A DNA stretch of 64,000 nucleotides from Sphaerotilus natans (GTDB lineage: Bacteria; Pseudomonadota; Gammaproteobacteria; Burkholderiales; Burkholderiaceae_C), in contig NZ_FTMZ01000008.1 in the NCBI RefSeq assembly GCF_900156335.1, positions 1 through 64,000 of the forward strand, given 5' to 3'. Positions 36,542 to 64,000 of the stretch are shown piece after piece. The first letter of the stretch is position 1; the number at the start of each line of letters is the position of its first letter. The notes beneath the pieces are model-generated. The model saw nothing but the letters and a program-made list of their open reading frames with translations, was not told the origin of the DNA and made no database searches. The position numbers and the translations under genes were made by a program.

Positions 36542-38860
36542 TTACAACTTCATCTCCAGCCTCACCGCCCACGCCGTGCTGCTGCGCCCCCAGGTGGTGG
36601 CCGTCTGGCGGGTGGTGGCGCCGTCCACGGTGGTGGTCGAGACGCTGTCGCGGGCGGCGAGGTTGCTGGCGGAGACGCGCAGCTTCAGGTCCGGCGCGAA
36701 GGTCCACAGCGCGTAGGCGTCGATGACCTGGCGGGTGTCGACGGTGGCGCGGCGGCTGGCGTCGAGCTGCACCGCGTAGCCGGGCGTGAAGCTCACGCTC
36801 GCGCCCAGCGTCAGCGGCGTGCCGCGCACCCGCCAGTCGGCGCCGGCGCCGGCGCTCCAGCCGGGCTGGTTGTCGAGGCGGTTGTCCGGGCCGGAGAGCG
36901 ATTCCACCCGCGAGCGGTAGACGCTGAGGTTGGCGCGCAGGTCGACGGCGGGCAGCGGCGCGGCGCCTTCAGCGGGAGGGGCGATCAGCGCGGCCAGCTC
37001 GGCGGCGCGGGCCTTGGCCTCCAGCTCCAGCCCGCGCGAGCGCGCGCGGCCGATGTTCTGCGGCCGCGAGACCCAGCGCAGCGCCGCGTCGCCGGTGTTC
37101 TCCAGCGCGACCTGGTTGCGGATCAGGTCGTCGATTCGGCGCTCGAAGACGCCGACGCTGAACACGCCGCCCTGCGCCAGATGCTGCTCCCAGGCCAGGT
37201 CCAGGCCGGTGGCCAGCTCCGGGCGCAGGTCGGGGTTGCCGCCGCGGTCGGGGTTGATCTCCAGATTGCTGCCATTGGCGCGGGTGCTGCGGGCGATCAT
37301 CTGCGCCAGCGTCGGCGCCTTGTAGCTGCGCGTCAGGCCGGCGCGGATCAGGCTGCGGCCGCCTTCCTCCAGCCGGTAGACCGCGTGCAGCATCGGCGCG
37401 GTGACCCGGCTGCGGTTGACCGCCTCGGCCTGGCCGGCGATGCCGGTGCTGCCGCGGGTGTCGATGCGCTCATGGCGCAGTCCCGCCTGGATGGACCACT
37501 GCGGCGTGGGCGTCCATTCGTCCTGGATCCACAGCGAGGCCCGGCGGCTGCGCGACTGCAGCGTGTCGCCGAAGTCGCCGTCGAGCACGCGGGTGCTGCC
37601 GTCGGCCTCGGTCTGCAGCGTGCTGCGGCTCTCGTCGCGGCGGCCGCTCTCCAGCTCCCAGCCCAGCGCGAGCAGATGGCGGCCCTCCACCAGCGGCCGG
37701 CTGGCCTTGCCGCCGGTGCTCAGCCAGCGGTCGCGGCCGTCGCGCTCCTCGTCGATGCGGCGCAGCGGGCTGCCGGCGGCATCGGCCTCGGTGCGCCGGC
37801 TGCTGCCGTCCGAGCGCGAGCCGGTGGCGCCGGCGCGCAGCTCCAGCCGCAGGCCGCCCTCCAGCCGGGTCTGCCACTGCGCGTTGAGTCGCGCCAGCGA
37901 GAAGCCGCTCTCGCCGGAGGTGTCCGCCTGCGCGTAGTCGGCGCTGCCGGCGCGGGTGAGCAGCGTGCGGCGGCCCGCGCTGACATTCTCCGAGCGCAGC
38001 AGGAAGGGCATCAGCGCGAAGCTCTCGCCCGCGCCCAGCCGCCACTGCACCCGTCCGCCGGCATGCACCGAGCGGCGCAGCGAGCGGCTCTCGTCCACCC
38101 GGTCCTGGTCCAGCGCGAGCTGGCCGTCGGCCTGCGTGGTCTCGACGGTGCGCAGCAGGCTGCCGTCATCGCTGCGGCTCTCGCGCAGATGCACCGAGAG
38201 GTTGTAGGACAAATCCTCGATCTGTTCGGCGCGGGTCCAGCTCAGGCCCGGCTGCCAGCGGCCGTCGTCGCGGCCCAGGCTCAGGTGCAGATCGTTCAGG
38301 CGCTGGCGCACGTCCTCGCGCAGCACGATGTCGATGGTGCCGGCCACCGCCTGCGCGCCGGTCTCGGCGGTCGGGCCGCGGGTGATCTCGATGCGCTCGA
38401 CCTGGCCCGGGGTGAGCGCGTCCAGGCTCATGCCCATCGGCAGGCGCTCGCCGTTGATCAGGATCTGGGTGTAGCCGCCGCCCAGGCCGCGCAGGCGCGG
38501 ATTGCCGCCGCGCCCCGGGCGGCCGTCGAGCGTCACGCCGGGCTGGCGCTTGAGCACCTCGGTGACGGTGGCGTCGCCCTGGCGCTCCAGCTCCTCGCGG
38601 CCGATGACGGTCTTGGCGGCGGTGGCCTGGCGGCGCTCGTGGCTCTCGTCGGGCCGGCTGGCGCGGATCTCGACCCGCTCCAGCGTGGCCTGCGGGGGCT
38701 GCGCCGGCACGGTCGGCACGCTCTCCTGCGCCTGAACCTGCGCGGCGGCCAGCGCGGCGACCGAGGCCAGCGGCAGCAGCAGGCGTGCGCCCCGCTGGCC
38801 TGGGGTGTTCGTTCGAGCGATCGTTCGAGCGTTCCTTGGGGCCTTCTTGGGAGTGTTCAT
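36542..38860 (-). CDS. TonB-dependent outer-membrane receptor
   Basis: About 772 residues from the ATG at 38860 (an ATG at 38896 would add 12 residues; neither has a clear ribosome-binding site). A signal region (LLLPLASVAALAAAQVQAQE) precedes a plug domain (TVIGREELERQGDATVTEVL, PRLRGLGGGYTQILINGERL, IEITRGPTAETGAQAVAGTI) and a ~22-strand barrel rich in alternating polar/aromatic strands. The C-terminus ends in an aromatic-free ...VRLEMKL. It imports a chelated metal or cofactor across the outer membrane using TonB. It is divergent from coaBC and 6.5 kb from its likely energiser tonB. No siderophore type can be read from sequence. Confidence 0.92.
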   Translation of the reverse strand: MNTPKKAPRNARTIARTNTPGQRGARLLLPLASVAALAAAQVQAQESVPTVPAQPPQATLERVEIRASRPDESHERRQATAAKTVIGREELERQGDATVTEVLKRQPGVTLDGRPGRGGNPRLRGLGGGYTQILINGERLPMGMSLDALTPGQVERIEITRGPTAETGAQAVAGTIDIVLREDVRQRLNDLHLSLGRDDGRWQPGLSWTRAEQIEDLSYNLSVHLRESRSDDGSLLRTVETTQADGQLALDQDRVDESRSLRRSVHAGGRVQWRLGAGESFALMPFLLRSENVSAGRRTLLTRAGSADYAQADTSGESGFSLARLNAQWQTRLEGGLRLELRAGATGSRSDGSSRRTEADAAGSPLRRIDEERDGRDRWLSTGGKASRPLVEGRHLLALGWELESGRRDESRSTLQTEADGSTRVLDGDFGDTLQSRSRRASLWIQDEWTPTPQWSIQAGLRHERIDTRGSTGIAGQAEAVNRSRVTAPMLHAVYRLEEGGRSLIRAGLTRSYKAPTLAQMIARSTRANGSNLEINPDRGGNPDLRPELATGLDLAWEQHLAQGGVFSVGVFERRIDDLIRNQVALENTGDAALRWVSRPQNIGRARSRGLELEAKARAAELAALIAPPAEGAAPLPAVDLRANLSVYRSRVESLSGPDNRLDNQPGWSAGAGADWRVRGTPLTLGASVSFTPGYAVQLDASRRATVDTRQVIDAYALWTFAPDLKLRVSASNLAARDSVSTTTVDGATTRQTATTWGRSSTAWAVRLEMKL

Positions 38861-38934
38861 ACGTGGAGGGGTAGTTTTTTCGGACACGGCGTTCATTGTC
38901 TGCCGCGTTGCTCACCCGTATAGACTCGCGGCCC

Positions 38935-40230
38935 ATGACCGAATCCACGCTCATGACCTCCGCCCCGTCCGCCCCGGGCCCCCGGGCCGATCTTGCCGGC
39001 CGCCGCATCGTGCTCGGCCTGAGCGGCGGCGTCGCCTGCTACAAGAGCGCCGAGCTGGTGCGCCTGCTGGTCAAGGCCGGCGCCGAGGTGCGGGTCGCGA
39101 TGACCGCCGGCGCGCTGCATTTCATGACCGCCGAGACGATGCAGGCGCTCTCCGGCCACCCGGTCGCGCAGGACACCTGGGACGCGCGCGAGCCCAACGG
39201 CATGCCGCACATCAACCTGACCCGCGGCGCCGACGCGGTGCTGGTCGCGCCCGCCAGCGCCGACTTCATCGCCCGCCTGGCCCAGGGCCGTGCCGACGAC
39301 CTGCTCAGCCTGACCTGCCTGGCGCGCCCGCTGGCCAGCGGCGCGGCCGACGCCCGCCCGGTGCCGCTGATCGTCGCGCCGGCGATGAACCGCGAGATGT
39401 GGGCCCACCCGGCCACGCAGCGCAACCTGCGCCAGATCGCCGCCGACGGCGCGCAGGTGCTCGGCGTCGACGCCGGCGCCCAGGCCTGCGGCGAGATCGG
39501 CGACGGCCGCATGATCGAGCCCGAGGCCGTTGTCGAGGAGCTGGTGGCGGCGCTCTCGCCCAAGCCCCTGGCCGGGCGGCGCCTGCTGATCACCGCCGGC
39601 CCGACCTTCGAGGCCATCGACCCGGTGCGCGGCATCACCAATTTGTCCAGCGGCAAGATGGGCTTTGCGATCGCGCGGGCTGCCCGCGAGGCCGGCGCCG
39701 AGGTCACGCTGGTGGCCGGCCCGGTGCACCTGCCCACGCCGCGCGGCGTGACCCGCGTCGACGTGCGCTCGGCGCAGCAGATGCTCGACGCGGTGATGCC
39801 GCGCGCGCCGCTGCACGATCTTTTCATCGCCACCGCCGCGGTGGCCGACTGGCGCCCGGCCTCGCTGTCGGAGCACAAGATCAAGAAGGATGGCAAGAAG
39901 GTCGCCCCGAGCTTCGAGCTGGCCGAGAACCCCGACATCCTGGCCACGGTGGCGCGCCTGCCCGAAGCGCAGCGCCCGTTCTGCGTCGGCTTTGCCGCCG
40001 AGAGCGAGAAGCTCGAGCACCACGCGCGCGAGAAGCTTCAGAGAAAGAACATTCCGCTGATCGTCGGCAACCTGGGCCCGGCGACCTTCGGCCGCGACGA
40101 CAACACGCTGCTGCTGGTCGATGCCCGGCACAGCCGCCCGCTGCCCGAGGATGGCCACCCCTGCGACAAGCAGACGCTGGCGCGCGCGCTGGTGGCCGAA
40201 ATCGCGCGGCGGCTGCATTCCGGGGCGTGA
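38935..40230 (+). CDS. coaBC: Bifunctional phosphopantothenoylcysteine synthetase/decarboxylase
   Basis: About 431 residues from the ATG at 38935 (38953 possible). The N-terminal flavin-dependent CoaC half shows [19 protein letters not shown], the active-site His in [32 protein letters not shown] and the PAMNREMW motif. The C-terminal CoaB half shows [30 protein letters not shown] and [10 protein letters not shown]. The enzyme makes 4'-phosphopantetheine from phosphopantothenate and cysteine in CoA synthesis. It is a housekeeping gene inserted between two TonB-dependent receptor genes. Confidence 0.96.
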
Positions 40231-40344
40231 TGTATCCGCGACGCAGTGAAAAATAACAACCTGTTGACATATAGCCAATAACTATCGGTACGTTAAGATT
40301 TGTCGAGTTGGGTTTCCGATCGACAACATCATTGACGGACTGAA

Positions 40345-43095
40345 ATGAAGAAGAACACCAGGCTGGCGGCCACCGCCGCACTGGCGCTGCTGCCGGTGGC
40401 CGCGGCCGCCGCCGAAGCCCTCGAGCTGTCGCGGGTCGAGGTGACCGGCAGCCGGATGCTGCGCAGCGTGGGCGAGGGCAGTGCGCCGCTGCGCACGCTG
40501 CAGCGCGCCGAGATCGAGCGCTCCGGCGCCAGCAGCGTGGCCGAGCTGCTGGAGCGGCTGCCGCAGATGCAGGGCATGCTGGCGCTGTCGGACAGCGTCG
40601 GCAATGACGGCAACGGCGTGACCGCGGCCTCCATTCACGGCCTGGGCGCGCGCTACACGCTGGTGCTGCTCGACGGCCAGCGCCTGGCACCGGCCGATTC
40701 CGGCTCGGTGGTCGATCTGGGCTCGCTGCCGCTGGCCGCGCTCGAGCGCATCGAGATCCTGAGCGACGGCGCCTCGGCGCTGTACGGCGCCGATGCGATC
40801 GGCGGCGTGGTCAACCTCATCCTGCGCCGTGGCGAGCGTGCGCCCGAGCTGTCGGTGCGCGCGCTGCGGCCGCAGCACGGGGGCGGGCGCGGCTGGAGCG
40901 CCTCGCTGTCGCAGGGTCTGGGCGACGAGCTGCGCGACGGCGGCACGCTGTCGTGGACGCTGGAGCTGGCGCGCACCGAGGCGATCCGTGCCTCGCAGCG
41001 CCCCTTCGCCTCGACCGGCCTGATCCGCTTCCGCGACGCGCAGGGGCGCGATCTGCTGTTCTTCAACGGCTCGATGCGCACCGTGCCGGCCAACGCCACC
41101 GTCAGCTACACCGATGCGGCCGGCGAGGCCGGCACGGCCTGGATCAATCCGGGCCTGCAGGCCAGCGGCAGCTGCGGCAGCCGCCACATCGAGGCCGGCG
41201 GGCTGTGCTACTACGACTATGCCTCGACGGTGGATGTGGCGCCGCAGACCCAGAGCACCGGCCTGACGCTGGACGGTGCGCGCCGGCTCGACGCCGGCTG
41301 GACGCTGCGCGGCACCGCGCTGTGGCGCGAGACGCTGACCCGCGCGACGGTGGCGCCGTATCCCGCCGATGTCTCGCTCGAGGCCAGCTCGGCGGCCTTC
41401 ACCCGCAGCCTGGCCCCGTGGCTGACCCAGGAGCAGATCGACGGCCATGACGGCACCGTGGTGAGCTGGCGCCTGCAGGATGCCGGGCCGCGGGTGGTCG
41501 ACTACCGCAACCGCCGCATGCATGTCAGCGCCGGGCTCGACGGCGAGGCGGCGGGCTGGCAGCTGCGCACCCGCGCGCTGCTGTCGCTGCACGAGCAGCG
41601 CCAGGACCTGCGTGAGGGCTGGCTGCTGGCGGCACCTTTCCAGGCGGCGCTGGCCGACGGCCGGCTCGATCCGTTCGCGGCGAGCCAGGACGCCAGCGGG
41701 CTGGCGGCGCTGTCGCAGGCCGGCTGGCGCGGTCGCTATGACACCGCGCGCACCCATCTGGCGGGTCTGGAGGCTGGAGGCACCACGGCGCTGTTCGAGA
41801 TGCCCGGCGGCCCGGCCCAGCTTGGCCTGGGCGCGGAGTGGCGCCGCAGCGGCTGGAGCCGCACGCTGTCGGACACCGCCCGCAGCGGCGCGCTGCTGTC
41901 GAGCGACGCCCAGACCGCTGCGGACCTGAGCCGCGACAGCGCCGGCGCCTACGGCGAGCTGGCGCTGCCGCTGCGACGCGACATGCGTCTGGATGCCTCG
42001 CTGCGTGCCGACCGCATCGGCCCGGTGCAGGACCATCTGGCCGGCCGCAGCATCGGCCGCTCGGCCAGCGAGGCCACCGGCCGCATCGGCTGGCGCTGGC
42101 AGCCCTCGGCCTCGACGATGTGGCGGGCTGCGGCCGGCACCGGCTTCCGGGCGCCCGACCTGCTGCAGATCGCCCGCGCCGAGCAAGACTACGGCGTGAC
42201 CGCCGGCAGCTACGCCTGCCCGTTCACCGCCGCCAACGGCCTGGACTCGCATCCCTATGCCGCGCTGTGCTGGCCGGGCAGCAACCAGATCGACCTGCTC
42301 AAGGGCGGCAACCCGGACCTGAAGCCTGAGCGCTCCAGCCACTGGTCGGCCGGCCTGCGCCTGGCGCCTTCGGCCGATGTCGGCTTCGGCGCCGACCTGT
42401 GGTCGGTGCGCATCCGCGACGCGGTGCAGGAGATCAGCGAGCAGCTGATCCTCAACGACCCGGTGCGCTACGCCAGCCTCTACACCCGCAAGACCAGCGC
42501 CTCCACCGGCACCGAGGTGCTGGCGCTGCGGCAGCTGCCGGTCAACATCGGTCGGGTCGAGCAGCGTGGCCTGGACTGGCAGGCGCACCTGCGCCACGGC
42601 TCGCCCTGGGGACGGCTCACCCAGCGTGTCGAGGGCACCTGGCTGCTGCATTCGCGCTACACCGTGCCGGGCAGCGATGGCGAATGGGCCTCCAGCCTGG
42701 GTCGCTTCGGCCTCGACGACCGGGTGGCCTTCCGCCATGTGGTGGCGCTGTCGAGCACCCTCGAGCGCGGCCGCTGGTCGCACCAGGCGCGGGTGAACTG
42801 GCGCAGCGGCTACCAGGACATGGTGCAGACCGAGGCCGGCTGCGCGGTCACCAGCGCCGACGGCCTGAGCTGCATGGCCGTCGAGCGTCGGGTGCCCTCG
42901 CACTGGACGCTGGACTGGACCAGCCGCTGGCAGCCGCGCGCCGACCTGACGCTGACGCTGTCGGTGCTCAACCTGCTCGATCGCGATCCGCCGCTGACGC
43001 TGCGCACCAGCGGTGCGCACATGATCGGCTTCGATCCGCGCTATGCCAGCGGCCAGGGCCGCGCGCTGCAGATGGGGCTGGACTGGCGCTTCTGA
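40345..43095 (+). CDS. TonB-dependent outer-membrane receptor
   Basis: 916 residues. Signal peptide KKNTRLAATAALALLPVAAA, then a TonB-box-like LSRVEVTGSRM stretch and plug domain (LERLPQMQGML, IHGLGARYTLVLLDGQRLAP, IEILSDGASALYGADAIGGV). The barrel runs to a C-terminal ALQMGLDWRF with the terminal Phe recognised by the BAM machinery. It is the first gene of a plus-strand run leading into a Fur-family regulator, an ABC importer and exbB-exbD-exbD-tonB. It therefore probably binds the same metal chelate that those genes move inward. Cysteine pairs in extracellular-loop regions (SCGSRHIEAGGLCYYD, ACPFTAANG...LCWPG, CAVTSADGLSC) may form disulfides. Confidence 0.93.
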   Translation: MKKNTRLAATAALALLPVAAAAAEALELSRVEVTGSRMLRSVGEGSAPLRTLQRAEIERSGASSVAELLERLPQMQGMLALSDSVGNDGNGVTAASIHGLGARYTLVLLDGQRLAPADSGSVVDLGSLPLAALERIEILSDGASALYGADAIGGVVNLILRRGERAPELSVRALRPQHGGGRGWSASLSQGLGDELRDGGTLSWTLELARTEAIRASQRPFASTGLIRFRDAQGRDLLFFNGSMRTVPANATVSYTDAAGEAGTAWINPGLQASGSCGSRHIEAGGLCYYDYASTVDVAPQTQSTGLTLDGARRLDAGWTLRGTALWRETLTRATVAPYPADVSLEASSAAFTRSLAPWLTQEQIDGHDGTVVSWRLQDAGPRVVDYRNRRMHVSAGLDGEAAGWQLRTRALLSLHEQRQDLREGWLLAAPFQAALADGRLDPFAASQDASGLAALSQAGWRGRYDTARTHLAGLEAGGTTALFEMPGGPAQLGLGAEWRRSGWSRTLSDTARSGALLSSDAQTAADLSRDSAGAYGELALPLRRDMRLDASLRADRIGPVQDHLAGRSIGRSASEATGRIGWRWQPSASTMWRAAAGTGFRAPDLLQIARAEQDYGVTAGSYACPFTAANGLDSHPYAALCWPGSNQIDLLKGGNPDLKPERSSHWSAGLRLAPSADVGFGADLWSVRIRDAVQEISEQLILNDPVRYASLYTRKTSASTGTEVLALRQLPVNIGRVEQRGLDWQAHLRHGSPWGRLTQRVEGTWLLHSRYTVPGSDGEWASSLGRFGLDDRVAFRHVVALSSTLERGRWSHQARVNWRSGYQDMVQTEAGCAVTSADGLSCMAVERRVPSHWTLDWTSRWQPRADLTLTLSVLNLLDRDPPLTLRTSGAHMIGFDPRYASGQGRALQMGLDWRF

Positions 43096-43136
43096 ACCGA
43101 GGCGTCCGGGGGCGGCGGATCGGCTAACCTTGCGGC

Positions 43137-43589
43137 ATGGAACGCAATACCCGTCAGCGCATCGCCATCCGCGAGGCGATCGAGGTGGCCCGCCGGCCGC
43201 TGCTGCCCCAGGAGGTGCTCGACCAGGCCCAGTCGCTCGCACCGGGCCTGGGCATCGCCACCGTCTACCGCAATCTCAAGGCCCTGGTCGATGACGGCAC
43301 GCTGGCGGTGGTGCAGCTGCCGGGCGAGAACCCGCGCTACGAGCCGGTCAGCCGCCGCCACCATCACCATTTCCAGTGCCGGCGCTGCCAGCGCGTCTTC
43401 GACGTGCACGCCTGCCCGGGCGACCTGTCCCGGCTGGCCCCGCCGGGCTTCTCGGTCGAGGACCACGACCTGACGCTGTACGGCTGCTGCGCCGACTGCG
43501 CCGCACCGGCGGGCACTGTCACGCTCACCCCGGCCTGCGACGACACCGCAGCCCACGCGCACGGCCACGGCCACGACAGCTGCTGTTGA
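43137..43589 (+). CDS. Fur-family metalloregulator with His/Cys-rich tail
   Basis: 150 residues. The N-terminal winged helix has the Fur-family recognition helix (GLGIATVYRNLKALVDDGTL). The metal region begins RRHHHHFQCRRC (C81, C84) and there is a second cysteine group CCADC (117-121), giving a structural Zn(Cys)4-like site. The last 11 residues (HAHGHGHDSCC) are an unusual metal-binding tail. The family includes Fur (Fe), Zur (Zn) and Nur (Ni); the tail and missing classic HHDH favour a Zn or Ni sensor, but this is inference. It sits between the receptor gene and the importer genes, just before a Fur-type inverted repeat. Confidence 0.88.
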   Translation: MERNTRQRIAIREAIEVARRPLLPQEVLDQAQSLAPGLGIATVYRNLKALVDDGTLAVVQLPGENPRYEPVSRRHHHHFQCRRCQRVFDVHACPGDLSRLAPPGFSVEDHDLTLYGCCADCAAPAGTVTLTPACDDTAAHAHGHGHDSCC

Positions 43590-43599
43590 ACTCATTCCT

Positions 43600-43644
43600 G
43601 GCCTCGTCATCCCGCTTGGCCTCGTCATCCCCGCGCAGGCGGGG
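43600..43644. repeat. REP-like intergenic element with hairpin
   Basis: GGCCTCGTCATCCC occurs twice (43600-43613 and 43618-43631). The second copy runs into CCCCGC-GCAG-GCGGGG (43629-43644), a stable small hairpin, followed by ACCCACGC. The pattern GTCATCCCCGC...GCGGGGA is that of a dispersed repeat common in proteobacterial intergenic regions. It lies just after the Fur-family gene and could attenuate readthrough into the importer operon. Confidence 0.55.
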
Positions 43645-43700
43645 ACCCACGCCCAGTCCCTCCGCTTCACGACCGCGCAACCCCATTCCAGCAAGCCTCA

Positions 43701-43724
43701 TTGGTAATGAAATATCATTAGCAA
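43701..43724. promoter_or_regulatory. Fur-family operator-like inverted repeat
   Basis: TTGGTAATGA-AATA-TCATTAGCAA: 10-base arms with one mismatch and a 4-base spacer, in a short AT-rich island 40 bases before the binding-protein gene. The core TAATGA...TCATTA equals the core of the E. coli Fur box, but with a 4-base instead of a 3-base spacer. It probably binds the adjacent Fur-family protein and puts the importer/TonB genes under metal control. Confidence 0.65.
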
Positions 43725-43763
43725 TCGAGAATCATTCGCCGCCCGCCTTGGCGGCCCTTGCTG

Positions 43764-45323
43764 ATGAGCCTGTTTCCTGTCGCGCCGGCGTTCGTCCGGC
43801 GCCGTGGCCTGCTGGCGCTGGCCGGCCTGCTTCCTTTCACGCCCGCGCTGGCGGCCGATGCGCGGCCGCTGCAGATCGTCGGCCCCTGGGAGATCACCGG
43901 CTTGCAGCCGGCGCAGAGCGGCTTTGTCTTCTCGCGGCTGCAGGTGGCCGAGACGCTGGTGGGCGCCGATGAGCGGGGTGCCCTGCGGCCGGCGCTGGCG
44001 CAGCGCTGGCAGGTCTCCGCCGATGGCCTGACCTGGCGCTTCGAGCTGCGCCCGGGCGCGCGCTTTCATGACGGCTCGCCGGTGACGGCGGCGGCGGTGC
44101 TGCGCAGCCTGCAGCCGGCGCGGGTGGCGCCGGGGCTGCTATCGAGCGCGCCGATCGTGGCGATGGAGGCGGAGGGCGACACGGTGCTGCGCATTCGCCT
44201 GAAGGCGCGCCATGCGGCGCTGCCGGCGCTGCTGGCGCATCCGAGCACGCTGGTGCTGGCGCCGGCCGCCTTCGATGCCGCCGGCCGGGTGCAGTCCATC
44301 CTCGGCAGCGGCCCCTATCGCATCACCCGGCTGCAGCCGCCGCAGCAGGTCGAGACCGCGGTGTTCGAGGGCTGGAACGGCGGGCCGCCGCCGCAGATCC
44401 GCCGCGTCGCCCATCTGGCCGCCGGCCGTGCCGAGACCCGCGCGCTGATGATCGAGAGCGGCCAGGCCGATCTGGCCTATGGCCTGGATCCGGCCAGCCT
44501 GCAGCGTCTGCGCCAGCGCCCGGCGCTGCGGGTGCAGACGGTGATGCTGCCGCGCACCGTCTACCTGAAGCTCAATGCCGGGCTGCCGGCGCTGGCCGAT
44601 GTGCGGGTGCGCCGGGCGCTGAGCCTGCTGATCGACCGCGCTGGCATCGCACGTGCGCTGCTGCGCGATCCGGGCCTGGCCGCCACCCAGCTGCTGCCGC
44701 CGTCGCTGGGCGAGTGGCACGATCCGGCGCTGGCGCCGCTGCGCCATGATCCGGCCGCCGCGCAGCAGCTGCTGGCCCAGGCCGGTTGGCGGCGGGGCGC
44801 CGACGGCCGGCTGCAGGATGGGCGCGGCCAGGCGCTGACGCTGCAGCTGCGCACCTTCCCGGATCGGCCGGAGCTGCCGCCGCTGGCCACCGCGCTGCAG
44901 GCGCAGTGGCGCCAGGCCGGGATCGCGCTGGAGGTCTCGGTCGGCAATGCCGGCGACATTCCGCTGGGCCACCGCGACGGGCGGCTGCAGATCGGCCTGG
45001 GCGCGCGCAACTACGCCAGCACGCCCGACCCGGTCGGCACGCTGCGCCAGGACTTCGGTCCGGGCGGCGGCGACTGGGGCGCGATGGGCTGGCAGAACGC
45101 CGATGTCGGCGTCGCGCTCGACACGCTGGCCCGGCTCGGTCCGGAGGCGCCGCGCGCGGCCGAGCTGCGCCGCCGGGTGGTGGCGGTGCTGCACGACGAG
45201 CTGCCGGTCATCCCGATCAGCTGGTACCGCCAGCAGCTGGCAGTCGGCGCGCGGGTCGACGGCGTGATCCTGGATCCGCTGGAGCTGTCCTATCGGCTCG
45301 ATGCGATGCGGTGGCGCGCATGA
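43764..45323 (+). CDS. ABC importer binding protein, peptide/nickel (SBP_bac_5) family
   Basis: About 519 residues from the ATG at 43764. An export signal with an arginine cluster (RRRGLLALAGLLPFTPALA) may be Tat-type. The body shows the family pattern: LAQRWQVSADGLTWRFELRP, GARFHDGSPVTAAAVLRSL, GSGPYRITRLQPP, VYLKLNAGLPALADVRVRRA, LSLLIDR and a closing VIPISWYRQQLAVG. The family binds oligopeptides, Ni/heme or metallophore complexes (DppA, NikA, CntA). It overlaps the first permease gene by 4 bases. The preceding Fur-type site makes a metal or metal chelate the likely ligand. Confidence 0.9.
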   Translation: MSLFPVAPAFVRRRGLLALAGLLPFTPALAADARPLQIVGPWEITGLQPAQSGFVFSRLQVAETLVGADERGALRPALAQRWQVSADGLTWRFELRPGARFHDGSPVTAAAVLRSLQPARVAPGLLSSAPIVAMEAEGDTVLRIRLKARHAALPALLAHPSTLVLAPAAFDAAGRVQSILGSGPYRITRLQPPQQVETAVFEGWNGGPPPQIRRVAHLAAGRAETRALMIESGQADLAYGLDPASLQRLRQRPALRVQTVMLPRTVYLKLNAGLPALADVRVRRALSLLIDRAGIARALLRDPGLAATQLLPPSLGEWHDPALAPLRHDPAAAQQLLAQAGWRRGADGRLQDGRGQALTLQLRTFPDRPELPPLATALQAQWRQAGIALEVSVGNAGDIPLGHRDGRLQIGLGARNYASTPDPVGTLRQDFGPGGGDWGAMGWQNADVGVALDTLARLGPEAPRAAELRRRVVAVLHDELPVIPISWYRQQLAVGARVDGVILDPLELSYRLDAMRWRA

Positions 45324-46279
45324 GGGCGTTCGAGCTGCTGCTGCGCCGGCTGATGCAGGCGCTGGCGCTGGCGCTGGGCGTGGGCACGCTGTGCCTGCTG
45401 ATGATGCGCGCGCTGCCGGGCGACATGGCGCTGCGGGTGGCGGCCGGGCGCTACGGCTTCGACCTGGTCGACAACGCTGCGGCCGATGCGGTGCGCGCCG
45501 AGCTGGGCCTGGATCGATCCTTCTGGCAGGTGCTGCCGGGATGGTGGCTGGACCTGCTGCAGCTCGACCTGGGTCGCTCGCTGGTGACCGGCGCGCCGGT
45601 GCTGGAGGAACTGGCGCACCAGCTCGGTGCCACGCTGCAGCTGTCCGGCGTGGCGCTGGTGCTGGCGCTGCCGGTCGGGCTGCTGCTGGGCCTGCGCGCC
45701 GGGCTGCGGCCGGGCGGTCCGGTCGACCGGCTGACGCTGGCGCTGGCGGTGCTGCTGCGGGTGATGCCGAGCTTCCTGCTGGCGGTGCTGCTGATGCTGG
45801 TGGTGGCGGTCGGCACCGGCGCGCTGCCGGTGGCCGGCGACCAGGGCCCGGCCAGCCTGCTGCTGCCGGCAACCACGCTGGCGGCCGGGCTGGCTGCGGG
45901 TCTGGCGCGCATCACCCGCCAGGCGCTGCGCGGCTTTCTGGCCTCGGAGGCCTGGGAGTTCGCGCGGATGAAGGGCCTGACCGAAGGCCAGGCGCTGCGG
46001 CACCACGGCCTGCGCCATGTGGCGCTGCCGGTGCTGGCCTGGCTGGGCGTGCAGGCGGTCTTTCTGGTCGAGGGTGCGGTGGTGGTGGAGTCGCTGTTCG
46101 CCTGGCCGGGCATCGGGCATGCGCTGGTGCATGCGGTCTTCGCGCGCGACGTGCCGATGATCCAGGGCACCGCGCTGTGCATGGGCATGATGTTCGTGAG
46201 CTTCAATCTGCTGACGGACGCGGCCTCGGTCGCGGCCGATCCGCGCCGACGTGCGCCGCAGGCCGGGGAGGGCGCATGA
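45320..46279 (+). CDS. ABC importer permease 1, DppB/NikB type
   Basis: 319 residues from the ATG at 45320 (ATGA overlap). N-terminal helix LMQALALALGVGTLCLLMMR, a periplasmic loop with D-L-G-R-S-L-V-T-G, then five more membrane helices and the EAA-type coupling loop (FARMKGLTEGQALRHHGLRH). VEGAVVVESLFAWPGIGHAL is the standard NikB/DppB motif. Forms the inner-membrane channel with the next permease. Confidence 0.93.
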   Translation: MRAFELLLRRLMQALALALGVGTLCLLMMRALPGDMALRVAAGRYGFDLVDNAAADAVRAELGLDRSFWQVLPGWWLDLLQLDLGRSLVTGAPVLEELAHQLGATLQLSGVALVLALPVGLLLGLRAGLRPGGPVDRLTLALAVLLRVMPSFLLAVLLMLVVAVGTGALPVAGDQGPASLLLPATTLAAGLAAGLARITRQALRGFLASEAWEFARMKGLTEGQALRHHGLRHVALPVLAWLGVQAVFLVEGAVVVESLFAWPGIGHALVHAVFARDVPMIQGTALCMGMMFVSFNLLTDAASVAADPRRRAPQAGEGA

Positions 46280-47055
46280 AGCGCAGTGCTGGCGCGCTGC
46301 TGCTGGCGCTGGTGGCGCTGTTCGGGCTGGCGGGGCCGGCGCTGATCGGCATCGATGGGGCGCTGCAGGATCTCTCGGCCAGCCTGCAGCCGCCGGGCGC
46401 AGCGCATCCGCTGGGCACCGATCTGCTCGGGCGCAGCGTGCTGGCCCGGCTGGCCGAGGCGACCCGGCTGTCGCTGGGCGTGGCGCTGCTGGCGACGCTG
46501 GCTGCGGCGGTGCCGGGCGTGCTGCTGGGGCTGCTGGCGGCCTGGCAAGGCGGACGGGTCGAGCGCGCGCTGGTGCTGCTGGCCGATGCGGCGATGTCGA
46601 TTCCCGGCCTGCTGCTGGTGGTGCTGTGCGCGGCCATCCTGCCCGGGCGCAAGGAGATGCTGGCGCTGGGCCTGGCGCTGGTGATGTGGGTCGAGCATTT
46701 CCGCGTCAGCCGCAGCGTCAGCCGCCCGGTGCTGGCGGGCGATGCGGTGCAGGCGGCGCGGCTGCTGGGCTTCGGGCCGCTGCATCTGCTGCGGCGCCAC
46801 CTGCTGCCGGCGCTGGCGCCGCAGCTCGGCACGCTGCTGGCCTTCGGGGTGGCGCAGGCGGTGCTGGGCCTGGCGGCGCTGGGCTTCATCAGCGTGGGCA
46901 TGCAGCCACCCGCGCCCGAGCTCGGCCTGATGATGACCGAGGCGCTGCCGCACTGGCATGAGGCGCCCTGGCTGATCGCCGCGCCGGTGGCGGTGCTGAT
47001 GCTGACGGTGCTGGGCATGATGCTGTTGCTCGGCGACGAGGAGGTGCGCGCATGA
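46276..47055 (+). CDS. ABC importer permease 2, DppC/NikC type
   Basis: 259 residues, somewhat short for the family. HPLGTDLLGRSVLARLAEAT is the typical DppC periplasmic motif. RPVLAGDAVQAARLLGFGPL, then L-L-R-R-H-L-L-P-A-L is the coupling loop, and AVLGLAALGFISVGMQPPAP is the conserved late helix with E-L-G-L-M-M-T-E-A following. The N-terminal leader is minimal. It overlaps both neighbours by 4 bases, so the importer genes are translationally coupled. Confidence 0.92.
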   Translation: MKRSAGALLLALVALFGLAGPALIGIDGALQDLSASLQPPGAAHPLGTDLLGRSVLARLAEATRLSLGVALLATLAAAVPGVLLGLLAAWQGGRVERALVLLADAAMSIPGLLLVVLCAAILPGRKEMLALGLALVMWVEHFRVSRSVSRPVLAGDAVQAARLLGFGPLHLLRRHLLPALAPQLGTLLAFGVAQAVLGLAALGFISVGMQPPAPELGLMMTEALPHWHEAPWLIAAPVAVLMLTVLGMMLLLGDEEVRA

Positions 47056-48500
47056 ACACGCCATCGCACACGACATCGAGCGAGGCATCGGGCGAGGTCC
47101 TGCTGCGGGTCGAGGACCTGACGGTGCGCGCCGGCGCCCGGGTGCTGCTGCGGCCGCTGTCGCTGGCGCTGCATGCCGGTGAGGCGCTGGTGCTGCTGGG
47201 CGAGAGCGGCGCAGGCAAGTCGCTGCTGGCGCAGGCGATCATGGGTACGCTGCCGTCGGGCCTGCAGGCGGGCGGCCAGGTCGTGATCGAGGGTCGGGCC
47301 AGCGCAGCCGACCGGCCGGCCCAGCGTCAGCCGCTCTGGGGCCGTCGCCTGGCGATGCTGCCGCAGGAGCCGGCGCAGGCGCTCGATCCGCTGATGCGGC
47401 TGCAGCCGCAGCTCGCGCTGGTGCATCACCATCTGCGCGGCGCCGCGCCGGCCGAGGCGGCGGCCCGCGCCGGGGCGGCGCTGACCGAGGCCGGGCTGGG
47501 GGCGGCGGCGCGGCAGTTTCCGTGGCAGGTCTCCGGTGGCATGGCGCAGCGCGCGGCCGCGGCGATTGCGCTGGCCGGCGGCGCGCGGCTGCTGCTGGTG
47601 GACGAGCCGACCAAGGGCCTCGATGCGCACTGGCGCGATCGCTGCGTCGCGCTGCTGCAGCAGCTGCGCCGCGAGGGCGGGGCGGTGCTGGTCATCACGC
47701 ATGATCTGCAGGTGGCGCGCGCGCTGGGCGGCCGGCTGATGGTGCTGCGCGAGGGCGAGTGCGTCGAGCAGGGCGACACCGCCCGGGTGCTGGCTGCGCC
47801 GGCCCATGCCTTCACCCGTGCGCTGATCGCGGCCGATCCCTCGGGCTGGCCCGATGCCGAGCTGCCGACCCGCGCCCCGGCCGGCGAGCCGGTGGTGCGC
47901 GCCGAGGCCCTGGGCAAGCAGTTCTGCGGGCGCTGGCTGTTCGACCGGCTGGATCTGGCGATCGGCCGTGGCGAGCGCCTGGCGGTGCAGGGCCCGAGCG
48001 GCTGCGGCAAGAGCACGCTGGGCAATCTGCTGCTCGGCCTGCTGGCGCCCGACCGCGGCCGGGTGCGCCGCGCTGCGGGGCTGTCGCCCTGGGCGCTGCA
48101 GAAGCTCTACCAGGATCCGCTGGGCTCCTTCGCGCCGACGGTGGCGCTGGCCGACGCGCTGGGCGATGTCGGCCGGCGCCACCGGCTGGACGCGGCGGCG
48201 CTGCGCCGGCTGCTCGAGGCGCTGCAGATCGATGAGGGCCTGCTGGCGCGCCGGCCGGCGCAGGTCTCCGGTGGCGAGCTGCAGCGTCTGGCGCTGGCGC
48301 GGGTGCTGTGGACCGGCCCGGCGCTGCTGTTCGCCGACGAGCCGACCTCGCGCCTTGACCCGCTGACCCAGCAGCAGGCGCTGGCGCTGCTGGCCCGCGA
48401 GACCGCGCGCCTGGACTTCGCGCTGCTGCTGGTCACCCACGACGCCGACGTGGCGCGGGCGATGGCCCCGCACACGCTGCATCCGTCGGCGCCGGTATAG
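47052..48500 (+). CDS. Fused double ABC ATPase, DppD-DppF type
   Basis: 482 residues carrying two complete nucleotide-binding domains. Domain 1: Walker A GESGAGKS (50-57), signature SGGMAQ (161-166), Walker B LLLVDEP (180-186), H-loop ITHD. Domain 2: Walker A GPSGCGKS (314-321), signature SGGELQ (406-411), Walker B LLFADEP (425-431), H-loop VTHD. Peptide/nickel importers normally use two separate ATPases; here one polypeptide supplies both. In domain 1 the short LLGESGAGKSLLAQAIMG region is followed by MLPQEPAQALDPLM, a normal Q-loop. Last importer gene, 46 bases ahead of exbB. Confidence 0.93.
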   Translation: MNTPSHTTSSEASGEVLLRVEDLTVRAGARVLLRPLSLALHAGEALVLLGESGAGKSLLAQAIMGTLPSGLQAGGQVVIEGRASAADRPAQRQPLWGRRLAMLPQEPAQALDPLMRLQPQLALVHHHLRGAAPAEAAARAGAALTEAGLGAAARQFPWQVSGGMAQRAAAAIALAGGARLLLVDEPTKGLDAHWRDRCVALLQQLRREGGAVLVITHDLQVARALGGRLMVLREGECVEQGDTARVLAAPAHAFTRALIAADPSGWPDAELPTRAPAGEPVVRAEALGKQFCGRWLFDRLDLAIGRGERLAVQGPSGCGKSTLGNLLLGLLAPDRGRVRRAAGLSPWALQKLYQDPLGSFAPTVALADALGDVGRRHRLDAAALRRLLEALQIDEGLLARRPAQVSGGELQRLALARVLWTGPALLFADEPTSRLDPLTQQQALALLARETARLDFALLLVTHDADVARAMAPHTLHPSAPV

Positions 48501-48546
48501 TCCGGCCCGATTCCTTCTTCTGGACGTCCTTCTGGAGCCTTTTGCG

Positions 48547-49203
48547 GTGACTGAAAGCAATCCCTACGGGCTGGCCGCGCTGTGGGCCGGCTCGGACCTG
48601 GTGGCCAAGCTGGTGCTGCTGATGATGGTGGTGATGTCGGCGGCGAGCTGGTATGTGATCGTCGTCAAGTGGCTGGAGCAGCAGCGCATGCTGCGCCAGG
48701 CGCGCGCGGCCGAGTCCTTCTGGCAGGCCGCCAGCGTCGCGCAGGGCGCCGAGGCGCTGGAGCCCGGCAGCCCCTTGCGCTTCATCGCGCTGGCGGGCGT
48801 CGAGGCCAGCGGCAAGCACGCCGGCCTGCTTGGGCGCATCGACCTGCACACCTGGATCACCATGTCGGTGCAGCGCGCCATCGAGCGGGTGCAGGGCCGA
48901 CTGCAGAACGGGCTGGCGCTCTTGGCCACCGTCGGCTCGACGGCGCCCTTCGTGGGCCTGTTCGGCACCGTCTGGGGCATCTACCACGCGCTGACCGCCA
49001 TCGGCGTGGCCGGCCAGGCCTCGATCGACAAGGTCGCCGGGCCGGTGGGCGAGGCGCTGATCATGACCGCCATCGGCCTGGCGGTGGCGGTGCCGGCGGT
49101 GCTGGGCTACAACTGGCTGGTGCGGCGCAACAAGGCGGTGATGGACGAGGTGCGCGGCTTCGCCGCCGACCTGCACGCGGTGCTGCTGGCCGAGCCGCGA
49201 TGA
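48547..49203 (+). CDS. exbB: ExbB/TolQ-family proton channel
   Basis: 218 residues from a GTG at 48547; GGAG lies about 9 bases upstream. Three membrane segments: KLVLLMMVVMSAASWYVIVV near the N-terminus, and two in the C-terminal half (TVGSTAPFVGLFGTVWGIYH, GEALIMTAIGLAVAVPAVLG). The latter hold the conserved ExbB residues. It forms the proton-driven motor with ExbD that energises TonB. The immediate downstream exbD-exbD-tonB genes rule out a TolQ or MotA assignment. Confidence 0.95.
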   Translation: MTESNPYGLAALWAGSDLVAKLVLLMMVVMSAASWYVIVVKWLEQQRMLRQARAAESFWQAASVAQGAEALEPGSPLRFIALAGVEASGKHAGLLGRIDLHTWITMSVQRAIERVQGRLQNGLALLATVGSTAPFVGLFGTVWGIYHALTAIGVAGQASIDKVAGPVGEALIMTAIGLAVAVPAVLGYNWLVRRNKAVMDEVRGFAADLHAVLLAEPR

Positions 49204-49643
49204 CGCTCCCGCGCGGCCCCTTCGACGCGCCGCCCGACGAGGACGCGGTGATGGCCACCATCAACACCACGCCGCTGGTCGATGTGATGCTGGTGCTGCT
49301 GATCATCTTCCTGATCACCATTCCGGTGGTGGCGACCTCGGTGCCGGTCGAACTCCCCAAGGAGCGGCTGCAGCCGCGCGAGACGCGGCCCGACAGCATC
49401 GTCATCTCGGTCGACGCGGCCGGGCGCCTGTTCTGGCACGACCTGCCGCTGGCCGGGCCGGACGCGCTGAAGGCCCGGCTGCTGGAGGCGGTGCAGGCCG
49501 CGCCGCCGGGCCAGACGCCGGAGGTCCAGGTGCGCGGCGATCGCCGCGGCGCCTTCGATCCGGTCGCGCAGGTGGTGCTGGCCTGCCAGCGCGCCGGCAT
49601 CGCGCGCATCTCCTTCATCACCGAGCCACAGGCGCTGCGCTGA
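49200..49643 (+). CDS. exbD: ExbD-family protein 1
   Basis: 147 residues from the ATG at 49200 (ATGA overlap with exbB). The single N-terminal membrane helix ATINTTPLVDVMLVLLIIFL contains the essential aspartate (D28). The periplasmic part ends KARLLEAVQAAPPGQTPEVQ and VRGDRRGAFDPVAQVVLACQ, typical of ExbD/TolR. Works with ExbB as the proton-conducting partner. A second exbD follows 13 bases later. Confidence 0.94.
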   Translation: MTLPRGPFDAPPDEDAVMATINTTPLVDVMLVLLIIFLITIPVVATSVPVELPKERLQPRETRPDSIVISVDAAGRLFWHDLPLAGPDALKARLLEAVQAAPPGQTPEVQVRGDRRGAFDPVAQVVLACQRAGIARISFITEPQALR

Positions 49644-49656
49644 AAGGACCGATCCG

Positions 49657-50097
49657 ATGGCGATGAACCTCGGCCCCGGCGACACCGCCGGCGGCGACGA
49701 CGAGCCGCTGATGGAGATCAACACCACGCCGCTGATCGACGTGATGCTGGTGCTGCTGGTGATGCTGATCATCACGATCCCGATCCAGCTGCATTCGGCC
49801 GATCTCGACCTGCCGGTGACGCCGACCACGCCGCCGGCCGAGCCGCCGGAGGTGGTGCGCATCGACATCGCGCCCGACGGCGCGCTGCGCTGGCAGGACG
49901 AGCCGGTCGCCGACCGCGCCGCGCTGGTGGCGCGGCTGCAGGCCGAGGCGGCGCGAGTGCGTCCGGCCGAGCTGCATATCCGCCCGGCGCCCGGCTCGGC
50001 CTACGCGGTCTTTGCCGAGGTGATGGTCGAGGCGCAGCGCGCCGGGCTGCGGCGCCTGGGCGTGGCCGGCCTCGAACGCTTCGAGCCGGCGCGCTGA
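49657..50097 (+). CDS. exbD: ExbD-family protein 2
   Basis: 146 residues; GAAAGGA lies before the ATG. Membrane helix MEINTTPLIDVMLVLLVMLI with the essential aspartate, again D28. The periplasmic domain differs strongly from ExbD 1 (VRIDIAPDGALRWQDEPVAD and RPAPGSAYAVFAEVMVEAQR), so the two are not recent duplicates. Paired ExbD proteins occur in several TonB systems, where one may tune the motor rather than be essential. Confidence 0.93.
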   Translation: MAMNLGPGDTAGGDDEPLMEINTTPLIDVMLVLLVMLIITIPIQLHSADLDLPVTPTTPPAEPPEVVRIDIAPDGALRWQDEPVADRAALVARLQAEAARVRPAELHIRPAPGSAYAVFAEVMVEAQRAGLRRLGVAGLERFEPAR

Positions 50098-50112
50098 GGC
50101 GGGAGATCGACG

Positions 50113-50835
50113 ATGCCCTTGCCTGAATTCGAGACCCCGTCACGCGCGCCGCGCTGGGTCGGCGCCACCGCCGTGGTCGGACTGCACCTGCTGGCGGGCT
50201 GGGCGCTGATGTCCGGTCTGGCGCGCCAGACGGTCGAGACGGTGCGCCAGACGGTGGAGATGGCGATCATCGATGCGCCGGCTCCGCCGCCGCCGCCCCC
50301 TCCGCCTCGTCCGAAGGAGACGCCGCCGCCCCCGCCCGCCCCGGCGCCGAAGACGCCGCAGCCGCCGGCCGTGGTGCCGCCCCCCCCCGCGCCCAAGGTC
50401 TGGGCGCCTCAGCCCGAGATCGCGCCGCCGCCTGCGCCCGCTGCCGCGCCAGTGCAGGCGGTTCAGCCCGAGCCGCCCCGGCCTGCGCCCCCCGCGCCGC
50501 CGGCACCGCCTGCGCCCCCCGCACCGGCGCCCGTCGCTGCGCCGGCCCCGGCGGTGCCTGCCGCGCCGGTGCGCGCCGAGGTCGGTCTGGCCTGCCCGGG
50601 CTATGCACAGATCATCCAGGACACGATGGCCGGCGCCTTCGACCGCTACGGCATCACCGGCGTGGTGAAGGTGCGCATGCTGGTGCGCGGCGGGCAGGTG
50701 GTGGAGACCAGCGTGCTGTCCGGGCCGCGTGAATACCACCGGTTGGCGGTCAGCGCGGCGCGGCGCATGAAATGCCAGGCCAGCGGCGCCGACGAGGTGC
50801 AGGTGAACTTCGAGATCAGCCTGCGCGAGGAGTGA
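50113..50835 (+). CDS. tonB: TonB energy transducer
   Basis: 240 residues: cytoplasmic start, one membrane helix (VGATAVVGLHLLAGWALMSG, ~16-36), a very proline-rich periplasmic spacer (~56-155, including P-P-P-P-R-P-K-E runs), and a C-terminal TonB domain (RYGITGVVKVRMLVRGGQVV, then ETSVLSGPREYHRLAVSAAR). It spans the periplasm and pulls on TonB-dependent receptors. Two cysteines (LACPGY and MKCQAS) bracket the C-terminal domain. A run of nine C residues at 50380-50388 lies in the proline spacer. Last gene of the exbB-exbD-exbD-tonB set; its stop is 12 bases from the convergent CAP gene. Confidence 0.94.
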   Translation: MPLPEFETPSRAPRWVGATAVVGLHLLAGWALMSGLARQTVETVRQTVEMAIIDAPAPPPPPPPPRPKETPPPPPAPAPKTPQPPAVVPPPPAPKVWAPQPEIAPPPAPAAAPVQAVQPEPPRPAPPAPPAPPAPPAPAPVAAPAPAVPAAPVRAEVGLACPGYAQIIQDTMAGAFDRYGITGVVKVRMLVRGGQVVETSVLSGPREYHRLAVSAARRMKCQASGADEVQVNFEISLREE

Positions 50836-50847
50836 GGCCCCGGACCG

Positions 50848-51459
50848 TCAGCGGGTCTTGGCCAGGTTCATCACCCAGTAGTTCGACTGGTTGGCGGTGT
50901 TGACCACGCAGGCGACGGCGACATCCCGCACCGTCGCGTTCATCAGGTTGGCGCAGTGACCGTCACTGCTCATCCAGGCGTCGACCACCCGGGTGATGCT
51001 CGGCTGACCGGCGGCGATGTTCTCGGCCACCGTCGACCAGGCATAGCCCGCAGCGCTGACCCGGTCAGCGACGCTGCTGCCGCTCGAGCCGGTGTGGCTG
51101 AAGAAGTTCTTGGCCACCATGTCCTTCGCATGCCCTGCCGCCGCGGCCAGCAGCTGGCTGTTCCAGGTCAGTGCGGTGGTGGCCGGGAAGCTACCCCGGC
51201 TGCCGCAGGTCTGCGCGCTGGCACGGCGGCGGTTGATCTCGGCCAGCATCGCTTCCTGGTAGCTGTCGATGCCACAGCGCTCGCTCGCCACGATCACCGA
51301 TGCCGTCTGGGCCGGGGCGACCGTGCTGCCGGGGCTTGCCGGGCTGGTCGCAGCGACGTTTTCATCGGCGCCCCCGCCGCCGCAGCCGGTCAGCAGGGCG
51401 GCCAGCAGCGCGGTGGCGATGGCAGGCAGGGACAGGTGCTTGTTACAGATGCGGATCAT
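50848..51459 (-). CDS. CAP/SCP-domain lipoprotein
   Basis: About 203 residues from the ATG at 51459. The signal ends in a lipobox (LLAALLTGC followed by GGGGADE). The mature part is a CAP (SCP/PR-1) domain: QEAMLAEINRRRASAQTCGS, LTWNSQLLAAAAGHAKDM, FFSHTGSSGSSVADRVSAAG, YAWSTVAENIAAGQ, and the C-terminal W-M-S-S-x-G-H-C-A-N-L-M-N motif with the conserved His. Family roles in bacteria are poorly defined (metal or lipid binding, proteolysis proposed). Envelope-anchored; monocistronic. Confidence 0.9.
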   Translation of the reverse strand: MIRICNKHLSLPAIATALLAALLTGCGGGGADENVAATSPASPGSTVAPAQTASVIVASERCGIDSYQEAMLAEINRRRASAQTCGSRGSFPATTALTWNSQLLAAAAGHAKDMVAKNFFSHTGSSGSSVADRVSAAGYAWSTVAENIAAGQPSITRVVDAWMSSDGHCANLMNATVRDVAVACVVNTANQSNYWVMNLAKTR

Positions 51460-51743
51460 GGCGGGACGAAGTCGAATGGCTGGCCGTGTTGTCGGCTCGA
51501 TGGACTTCATTCTGGAGAGTCACCTCAGTCCGGCAAGGGGAAGCGGACGCCATGTTGCGGGGGTTGTGGCTTCTACACGCATCAACCTGCGCCATCTTCA
51601 CGGATCTTGTTGAACATGCCCGTGTTCGGGGGGGCTGAGGCCGTAGCGCGGCGATCCGGCTCGAATCAGACTGTCGTTGCCGGATCTGAAATAAGCTGCA
51701 TCGCCTCGTTGGCAACTTGTTCGGATCGGCTACAGGAGTCAGC
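51460..51743. other. Intergenic region before a small ORF
   Basis: 284 bases holding the probable promoter of the minus-strand CAP lipoprotein. The right half is AT-richer (around 51590-51720). I see no RNA gene, repeat or clear operator. Confidence 0.4.

Positions 51744-55398: not shown

Positions 55399-64000
<8,602 letters not shown>

Follow-up and report, generated by a model that had tools for sequence, protein, structure and literature searches.

The passage of zinc across the outer membrane of Gram-negative bacteria, and the chemical form in which it passes, are largely open questions, also according to excerpts from the literature on Burkholderia cenocepacia. A locus of Sphaerotilus natans raises the question of whether one run of genes could provide for the whole of this route. 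The stretch analyzed (hereafter the window) comprises 64,000 nt, positions 1 to 64,000 of contig NZ_FTMZ01000008.1. Within it, ten adjacent genes on the plus strand (40345–50835) encode a receptor, a regulator, a binding protein, two permeases, an ATPase, ExbB, two ExbD proteins, and a TonB-like protein. An earlier note, made from the sequence alone, had described this run. Pfam domains were found for nine of its genes, and TonB was recognized by a weak profile match together with fold matches. As judged from sequence comparisons, the locus appears to be a lineage-specific Sphaerotilus variant of a little-studied, Zur-type zinc importer of the Opp/Nik family, in which the importer is accompanied by a regulator resembling Zur, by an exchanged receptor, and by a TonB motor. 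The note had left the metal open among Fe, Zn, Ni, and Co; the neighborhoods of related importers, Zur sites, and the kinship of the regulator now point to zinc, and this context makes zinc very probably the metal.

Of the named relatives of the window binding protein, that of Sphaerotilus sulfidivorans is the closest (93% identity). In this species (locus L020), the gene order is identical from a coaBC-type gene to the TonB gene, with 86–96% identity, and the contig ends at the tonB gene. Because the order is kept in S. sulfidivorans, the arrangement in the window is not an accident of assembly.

The four-gene importer and its zinc context

The core of the locus is an ATP-binding cassette (ABC) importer. 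Its periplasmic binding protein (43764–45323, plus strand; P0001 covers 43770–45320) belongs to the SBP_bac_5 family (PF00496, 233.8 bits) and not to the ZnuA family PF01297, the only genomic match of which lies on contig C20. The most likely start of the gene is the ATG at 43764, not the TTG at 43758. It is followed on the same strand by the genes for permease 1 (NikB/DppB-like, 45320–46279) and permease 2 (NikC/DppC-like, 46276–47055), both with a PF00528 (BPD_transp_1) domain, and by the gene for a fused double ABC ATPase of 482 residues (47052–48500) with two ABC_tran stretches in Pfam. As the earlier note had reported, the importer genes overlap by ATGA, and this was seen at all three junctions (binding protein/permease 1, permease 1/permease 2, and permease 2/ATPase); a fourth ATGA overlap joins the ExbB gene to that of the first ExbD protein.

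Relatives of the importer were compared in 69 loci (47 named loci, 7 from the family, and 15 from the phylum). The remaining 10 of the 57 named loci, from Azospirillum and one Roseomonas, are distant (26–27% identity) and were left out. Many of the 69 loci come from shared genera, and the flanks of several are short; the counts are therefore not independent, and absences are to be read as lower bounds. At the thresholds used, permease 1 lay within 8 kb of the binding protein in 67 of the 69 loci and the ATPase in 65. Plasmid records of Rhizobium, Pantoea, and Pseudosulfitobacter show annotations in the order binding protein–permease–permease–ATPase as well. The binding protein, both permeases, and the fused ATPase thus form a conserved operon of four genes, which covers the importer part of the gene order to which the earlier note had pointed. 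Per genome, the importer is uncommon (12/299 genomes of the family and 17/398 of the phylum, the S. natans genome being counted in both). The binding protein also matched 130 plasmid records at E ≤ 1e-50, most of them taken without further checks.

The surroundings of these relatives connect the importer to zinc. Within 8 kb of the binding-protein gene, a ZigA-type COG0523 GTPase was found in 11/69 loci, one of these GTPases scoring 585 bits against the ZigA model (cut-off 600), and AztABC/ZnuABC-type genes were found in 5/69. A Zur-like regulator was present within the same distance in four loci, two of which (L020 and L021) are of the same type as the window and two (L042 and L144) are not. 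Zur-like sites (≥14/18) immediately preceded the binding-protein gene in 18/69 loci, including L020 and L021; as a control, regions upstream of other long reading frames from these loci reached this score in 1/582 cases. In seven more named loci, a Zur-like site preceded a ZigA-containing operon; these came from a scan of whole loci (the 57 named loci and the window, without the 22 unnamed loci), to which the 1/582 control is not matched and which also gave 14/18 away from operon fronts, at L063:18270 and L073:18752. On plasmids, Zur-like sites were located ~190 bp upstream of the importer in Rhizobium (15/18) and Pantoea (16/18). On two plasmids of Paracoccus aestuarii (L210 and L211), the importer operon adjoins a zinc ABC importer, and a Fur-family gene is annotated between them in one. 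Together, these data tie a conserved "nickel/dipeptide" ABC importer family to zinc starvation.

An operon of similar composition is known from Paracoccus denitrificans. According to the sections consulted of PMC5387054, pden1338–1344 encodes a COG0523 GTPase, two hypothetical proteins, and the "Ni/dipeptide" cluster C ABC importer; expression of its genes increases 8.6- to 16-fold when zinc is depleted, Zur binds at a motif in front of pden1341, and the substrate is left open. As far as described there, this operon shares with the window a binding protein, two permeases, and one ATPase gene, and its Zur motif has a candidate counterpart before the binding-protein gene of the window, but it contains no receptor or TonB motor. 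The order in Rhodobacterales relatives of the window operon (GTP-binding protein–DUF6525–binding protein–permease–permease–ATPase in Pseudosulfitobacter) is much like that of pden1338–1344.

The regulator and its candidate operator

The second gene of the run (43137–43589, plus strand) encodes a Fur-family protein of 150 residues (P0003; PF01475, 64.4 bits). Its His/Cys-rich tail, noticed before, reads HAHGHGHDSCC. The best matches in the Protein Data Bank (PDB) are annotated as "putative metal uptake regulation protein" (3mwm/7vo0) and "probable zinc uptake regulation protein FurB" (2o03). In L144, the gene directly after that of the ATPase encodes a Fur-family protein with 79% identity to the regulator; another such protein, encoded beside the receptor of the importer in L042 (Cupriavidus gilardii), shares 54% with it, and a third, ~10 kb from the binding-protein gene in L031, shares 55%. 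Within its own genome, the regulator shares 44% identity with a Zur protein that is linked to znu genes and 33% and 26% with two other Fur proteins. This znu-linked Zur adjoins ZnuA together with an ABC ATPase and a permease, the last two named by eye. The regulator of the locus is thus closer to Zur than to the other Fur proteins of the genome, with zinc-dependent DNA binding predicted, and the genome seems to contain two Zur-type regulators, that of the locus and the znu-linked one.

A palindrome resembling a Zur box, TGGTAATGAAATATCATTAGCA, is located at 43702–43723 (no strand assigned), 40 bp before the ATG of the binding-protein gene. With one Zur consensus, this was the top site of the window (14/18, runner-up 11); with a second, it was the joint top site (12/18), tied with position 6715. 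A stretch that resembles a Fur box, GCAATCGAGAATCATTCGC, overlaps the palindrome at 43721–43739 (no strand assigned); with 12/19 matches to a Fur consensus, third in the window, it is a weaker alternative operator. The operator before the importer had previously been called Fur-type. A palindrome is indeed present, but the Zur strings fit the operator better (14/18 and 12/18) than do the Fur strings (12/19 and 12/18); the evidence for Zur is the stronger, although not decisive, and iron was dropped as the default metal.

The zur-znu group of the same genome (L085:6907–10163) is preceded by TGCAAATGCTTTTGCATTAGCA, which resembles the palindrome of the window and has the right half, CATTAGCA, in common with it. 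When the genome was scanned for the window operator with three mismatches allowed, three places besides that of the window were found (in total, six matches on both strands, compared with three for a reversed-pattern control). Zur boxes were also looked for before the siderophore-type receptor genes of Burkholderiales relatives, and none of use was found. A possible TTTTGCAT-like stretch before these receptor genes was spotted by eye.

The receptor and the TonB motor

The run begins with the gene for a TonB-dependent outer-membrane receptor of 916 residues (P0002; 40345–43095, plus strand) with Pfam plug and barrel domains. This is not the type of receptor that usually accompanies the importer. 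In 28/69 loci, a different, siderophore-type receptor was found within 8 kb of the importer, two examples of which exceed the cut-off of TIGR01783. A tree of 54 binding-protein sequences, including three distant outgroup rows, places the window protein inside a Burkholderiales clade whose members mostly adjoin such a receptor (local supports of 0.98, 0.94, and 0.88 from the outside inwards, and 0.46 for the nearest neighbor of the window). A search of the S. natans genome for the siderophore-type receptor returned nothing beyond partial matches of 30–31%. A second TonB-dependent receptor gene, encoding 784 residues, lies just upstream of the locus (36542–38896, minus strand) and is also present in S. 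sulfidivorans.

The motor genes, all on the plus strand, encode an ExbB/TolQ-type subunit (48547–49203, GTG start; PF01618, MotA_ExbB) and two ExbD/TolR-type subunits (49200–49643 and 49657–50097; both PF02472). In NCBIfam, the ExbB protein scored 156 bits against tolQ and 112 bits against exbB, and both ExbD proteins scored higher as TolR than as ExbD, in each case below the cut-offs; the motor may be of an intermediate type. Only 46 bp separate the ATPase gene from exbB, and no terminator-like pattern was matched in this gap. A scan for sigma-70-like promoter patterns returned no match anywhere in 40200–51600; because it was blank over the whole locus, its blank in the ATPase–ExbB gap says little.

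The product of the last gene (50113–50835, plus strand) has a Pro-rich linker and a C-terminal domain. It had no Pfam match at E ≤ 0.001, the TonB_C profile giving 14.1 bits (cut-off 24.6). A single-sequence AlphaFold model of its last 88 residues (pLDDT 71.6) folds as helix-strand-strand-helix-strand. No Foldseek match to this model reached E ≤ 0.001, and the first eight were the C-terminal domains of TolA, TonB, HasB, and FusB proteins (E 2e-3 to 1e-2). The model thus suggests that the protein is likely of the TonB/TolA type, which is the weakest assignment of the ten genes.

The receptor and motor are found together elsewhere. Relatives of the window receptor (E ≤ 1e-50) are present in 90/299 genomes of the family, that of S. 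natans included. In at least 30 genomes, again including S. natans, a receptor of this type has an ExbD2 relative within 8 kb; the pairs were picked by eye among the matches listed, and the count is a lower bound. In two other genomes of the genus, which have no binding-protein match at E ≤ 1e-60, ExbB-ExbD-ExbD-TonB stands beside a window-type receptor (L129 and L130). In a third genome of the genus (G058), a copy of the importer that is 52% identical and belongs to another branch of the tree lies far from an ExbB-ExbD-ExbD-TonB motor on the same contig. Thus, receptor and motor appear to be a second module, separate from the importer in relatives. It looks as though a cassette of receptor plus motor has replaced the receptor of a zinc importer: the siderophore-type receptor usual in Burkholderiales was probably lost in Sphaerotilus and replaced by one that elsewhere travels with its own motor. 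This suggests that a receptor with a TonB motor displaced another receptor at a conserved importer.

The earlier note had known of no standard system with all these parts in one locus. Two loci from other genera of the family (L200:6230–18804 and L198:43–11400) come close, with a window-type receptor, a family-5 binding protein, a permease (in L198 seen by tblastn only), a fused double ATPase, and ExbB-ExbD-ExbD. The TonB candidates tested in these two had no Pfam match. L133–L135 and L199 resemble these two by tblastn, and L133 has a TonB_C gene. In all six, the receptor type and the motor are those of the window, but the Opp/Dpp-type ABC genes belong to another branch (25–36% identity by tblastn), the binding-protein frames are larger (698 and 816 residues), and a regulator resembling Zur was not seen. 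No single one of the six showed every part; L200 and L198 are near-complete, most, though not all, of the parts list recurs elsewhere, and the idea of a unique list was dropped.

The likeness to characterized zinc systems is also partial. In Acinetobacter baumannii, tonB1-exbB1-exbD1 has a predicted Zur box and tonB rises 4- to 5-fold with a zinc chelator; in the excerpts of PMC3516566, this is likewise a TonB motor under zinc control, but it is listed apart from any Opp-type importer, with ZnuABC at the inner membrane. PA1922–PA1925 of Pseudomonas aeruginosa (receptor, CobN-like protein, and ExbD), as described in parts of PMC4542158, combine a Zur-linked receptor with a co-transcribed motor subunit and differ from the window in having ExbD only, a CobN-like protein, and no ABC importer. 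The Cnt/opine zincophore systems (S. aureus Cnt and Pseudomonas cnt) rely on an Opp-type ABC importer whose Pfam families are those of the window, and some include a TonB-dependent outer-membrane protein, as the window does (PMC7438024, in the portions available). Unlike in Cnt, the ATPases of the window are fused, and the S. natans genome gave no match to profiles of Staph_opine_DH (PF10100), for which no control genome was positive either, or of nicotianamine synthase (PF03059), for which one control genome was. These searches agree with the earlier statement that a staphylopine-type synthase is missing, and the idea of such an enzyme elsewhere in the genome was dropped. As no opine-type synthase was found, any chelate would either come from the environment or be the product of a different pathway. 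Among the listings and passages of open-licence papers that the literature searches returned, none describes a TonB motor that shares an operon with this importer.

One zinc route or two neighboring systems

We consider it rather probable that the locus is a zinc-starvation uptake system with a single route through both membranes. At low zinc, a Zur-type repressor, either the regulator of the locus or the znu-linked Zur, would leave the operator at 43702–43723, and this derepression would permit transcription of the operon from the binding-protein gene to tonB. The receptor would then bring in a zinc complex, with the ExbB-ExbD-ExbD-TonB motor encoded in the same operon as its power source; once in the periplasm, the complex would be captured by the NikA/DppA-type binding protein and moved into the cytoplasm by the two permeases and their fused double ATPase. 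The substrate would be zinc bound to a chelate or a short metal-binding peptide, and the receptor would feed the importer. Of the metal-chelate route with its own energiser that had been claimed for the locus, the co-occurrence of a metal-linked Dpp/Nik-type importer, a receptor, a regulator, and a motor is borne out. The single route for a single chelate is still an inference, because the importer and the receptor/motor pair are separate in relatives.

Several findings weigh against this zinc route. Among the 69 loci, only S. sulfidivorans has the window receptor type and ExbB-ExbD-ExbD-TonB near the importer, several of the other loci having short flanks. ExbD2 relatives (E ≤ 1e-20) occur in 268/299 genomes of the family, so that such motors are common, and the Opp-type importers beside other receptor-motor sets may carry peptides. 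A Zur-like site immediately in front of either the binding-protein gene or a ZigA operon is missing from 44/69 loci. No Zur site reached the threshold in the stretches scanned of Burkholderiales relatives outside Sphaerotilus and the 92%-identical metagenome-assembled genome L021; the local operator type therefore rests on the site in the window and the operator of the genome's own zur. Both Fur consensus strings rank third in the window at the operator area. The region upstream of the receptor lacks a good match to Zur and scores 12/19 with a Fur string. The kinship between the window and pden1341 rests on gene order and annotation. Finally, His416 of NikA, the need for which in nickel uptake is taken from the title of PDB entry 3qim, aligns with Gly433 of the window protein; in an alignment of 28 of the 57 named loci and the window, this column contains His in 0/29 proteins and the next column in 2/29.

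The strongest competitor of the single zinc route, though an unlikely one in our estimate, is that two unrelated systems are neighbors: a zinc importer, consisting of the regulator and the four ABC genes, beside a receptor/TonB-motor pair for, e.g., peptides, with zinc entering the periplasm via porins or another receptor. It would account for the sets of receptor and motor that lack a binding-protein match in L129 and L130 or stand with Opp-type importers in L133–L135 and L198–L200, for the distance between importer and motor in G058, and for the missing Zur match before the receptor. It accords less well with a motor that directly follows the ABC genes after 46 bp without a terminator-like match, with a gene order kept in S. 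sulfidivorans, and with a genome in which the usual receptor of the importer was not found. TonB motors and receptors are classically linked to iron, and a Fur-controlled importer of a ferric chelate, or of metal chelates broadly, to which the zinc context of distant relatives would not apply, could draw on this, on the Fur matches at 43721–43739 and upstream of the receptor, and on the two neighboring receptors above the TonB-siderophore cut-off of TIGR01783. We regard it as very improbable in view of the stronger Zur match at the operator, the Zur-like regulator adjacent to it, the Opp/Nik type of the importer, and the zinc-type genes beside some orthologues.

That the locus imports nickel or cobalt in the way of NikABCDE, with a receptor of its own, is, in our judgment, even more improbable. 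NikA is the closest solved structure: the AlphaFold model of the binding protein (pLDDT 89.4) has NikA 2noo as its best Foldseek match (E 3.4e-41). In NCBIfam, too, the binding protein and the permeases come closest to nickel models, all below cut-off (for permease 1, NF045470 at 240 bits, cut-off 350; for permease 2, NF045474 at 172.7 bits, cut-off 300). However, His416 is not conserved, the ATPase is fused instead of separated into NikD and NikE, and the relatives have zinc neighborhoods and Zur sites; nickel by analogy with NikA was dropped on account of His416. Since the NikA-type His ligand is absent, a chelate would be more likely as the ligand.

Returning to the zinc route, a bolder form of it can be put forward only tentatively. 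Here, the locus would be a self-contained route for a zincophore or a zinc-peptide, with a second, locus-specific Zur, a TonB motor used for zinc only, and a receptor-motor cassette derived from an Opp-type, possibly peptide, locus. If this cassette exchange took place, TonB motors are able to pass, together with receptors, from one nutrient class to another. The binding protein of the importer could serve as bait for a zinc carrier, and the Sphaerotilus version, which comes with its own motor and regulator, would be a compact unit for transfer to a laboratory host.

A hybrid cluster of polyketide synthase (PKS) and nonribosomal peptide synthetase (NRPS) genes starts 4.5 kb after the locus (55399–63892, minus strand) and continues to ~96.3 kb of the contig (L214–L218). 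A metallophore role of this cluster was considered and set aside. No Fur or Zur site at the cluster scored above 12/19 (Fur), 12/18 (second Fur), or 11/18 (Zur strings), and no receptor was found among the nine proteins scanned (of five NRPS/PKS frames, two were scanned in full and one in part). The genes of the cluster include one for a diaminobutyrate transaminase, which exceeds the cut-off of TIGR02407 (645.8 bits), PKS genes, and an NRPS gene encoding condensation, adenylation, and thioesterase domains. Between the locus and this cluster, a gene for a CAP/SCP-domain protein (PF00188; 50848–51510, minus strand) is convergent with tonB.

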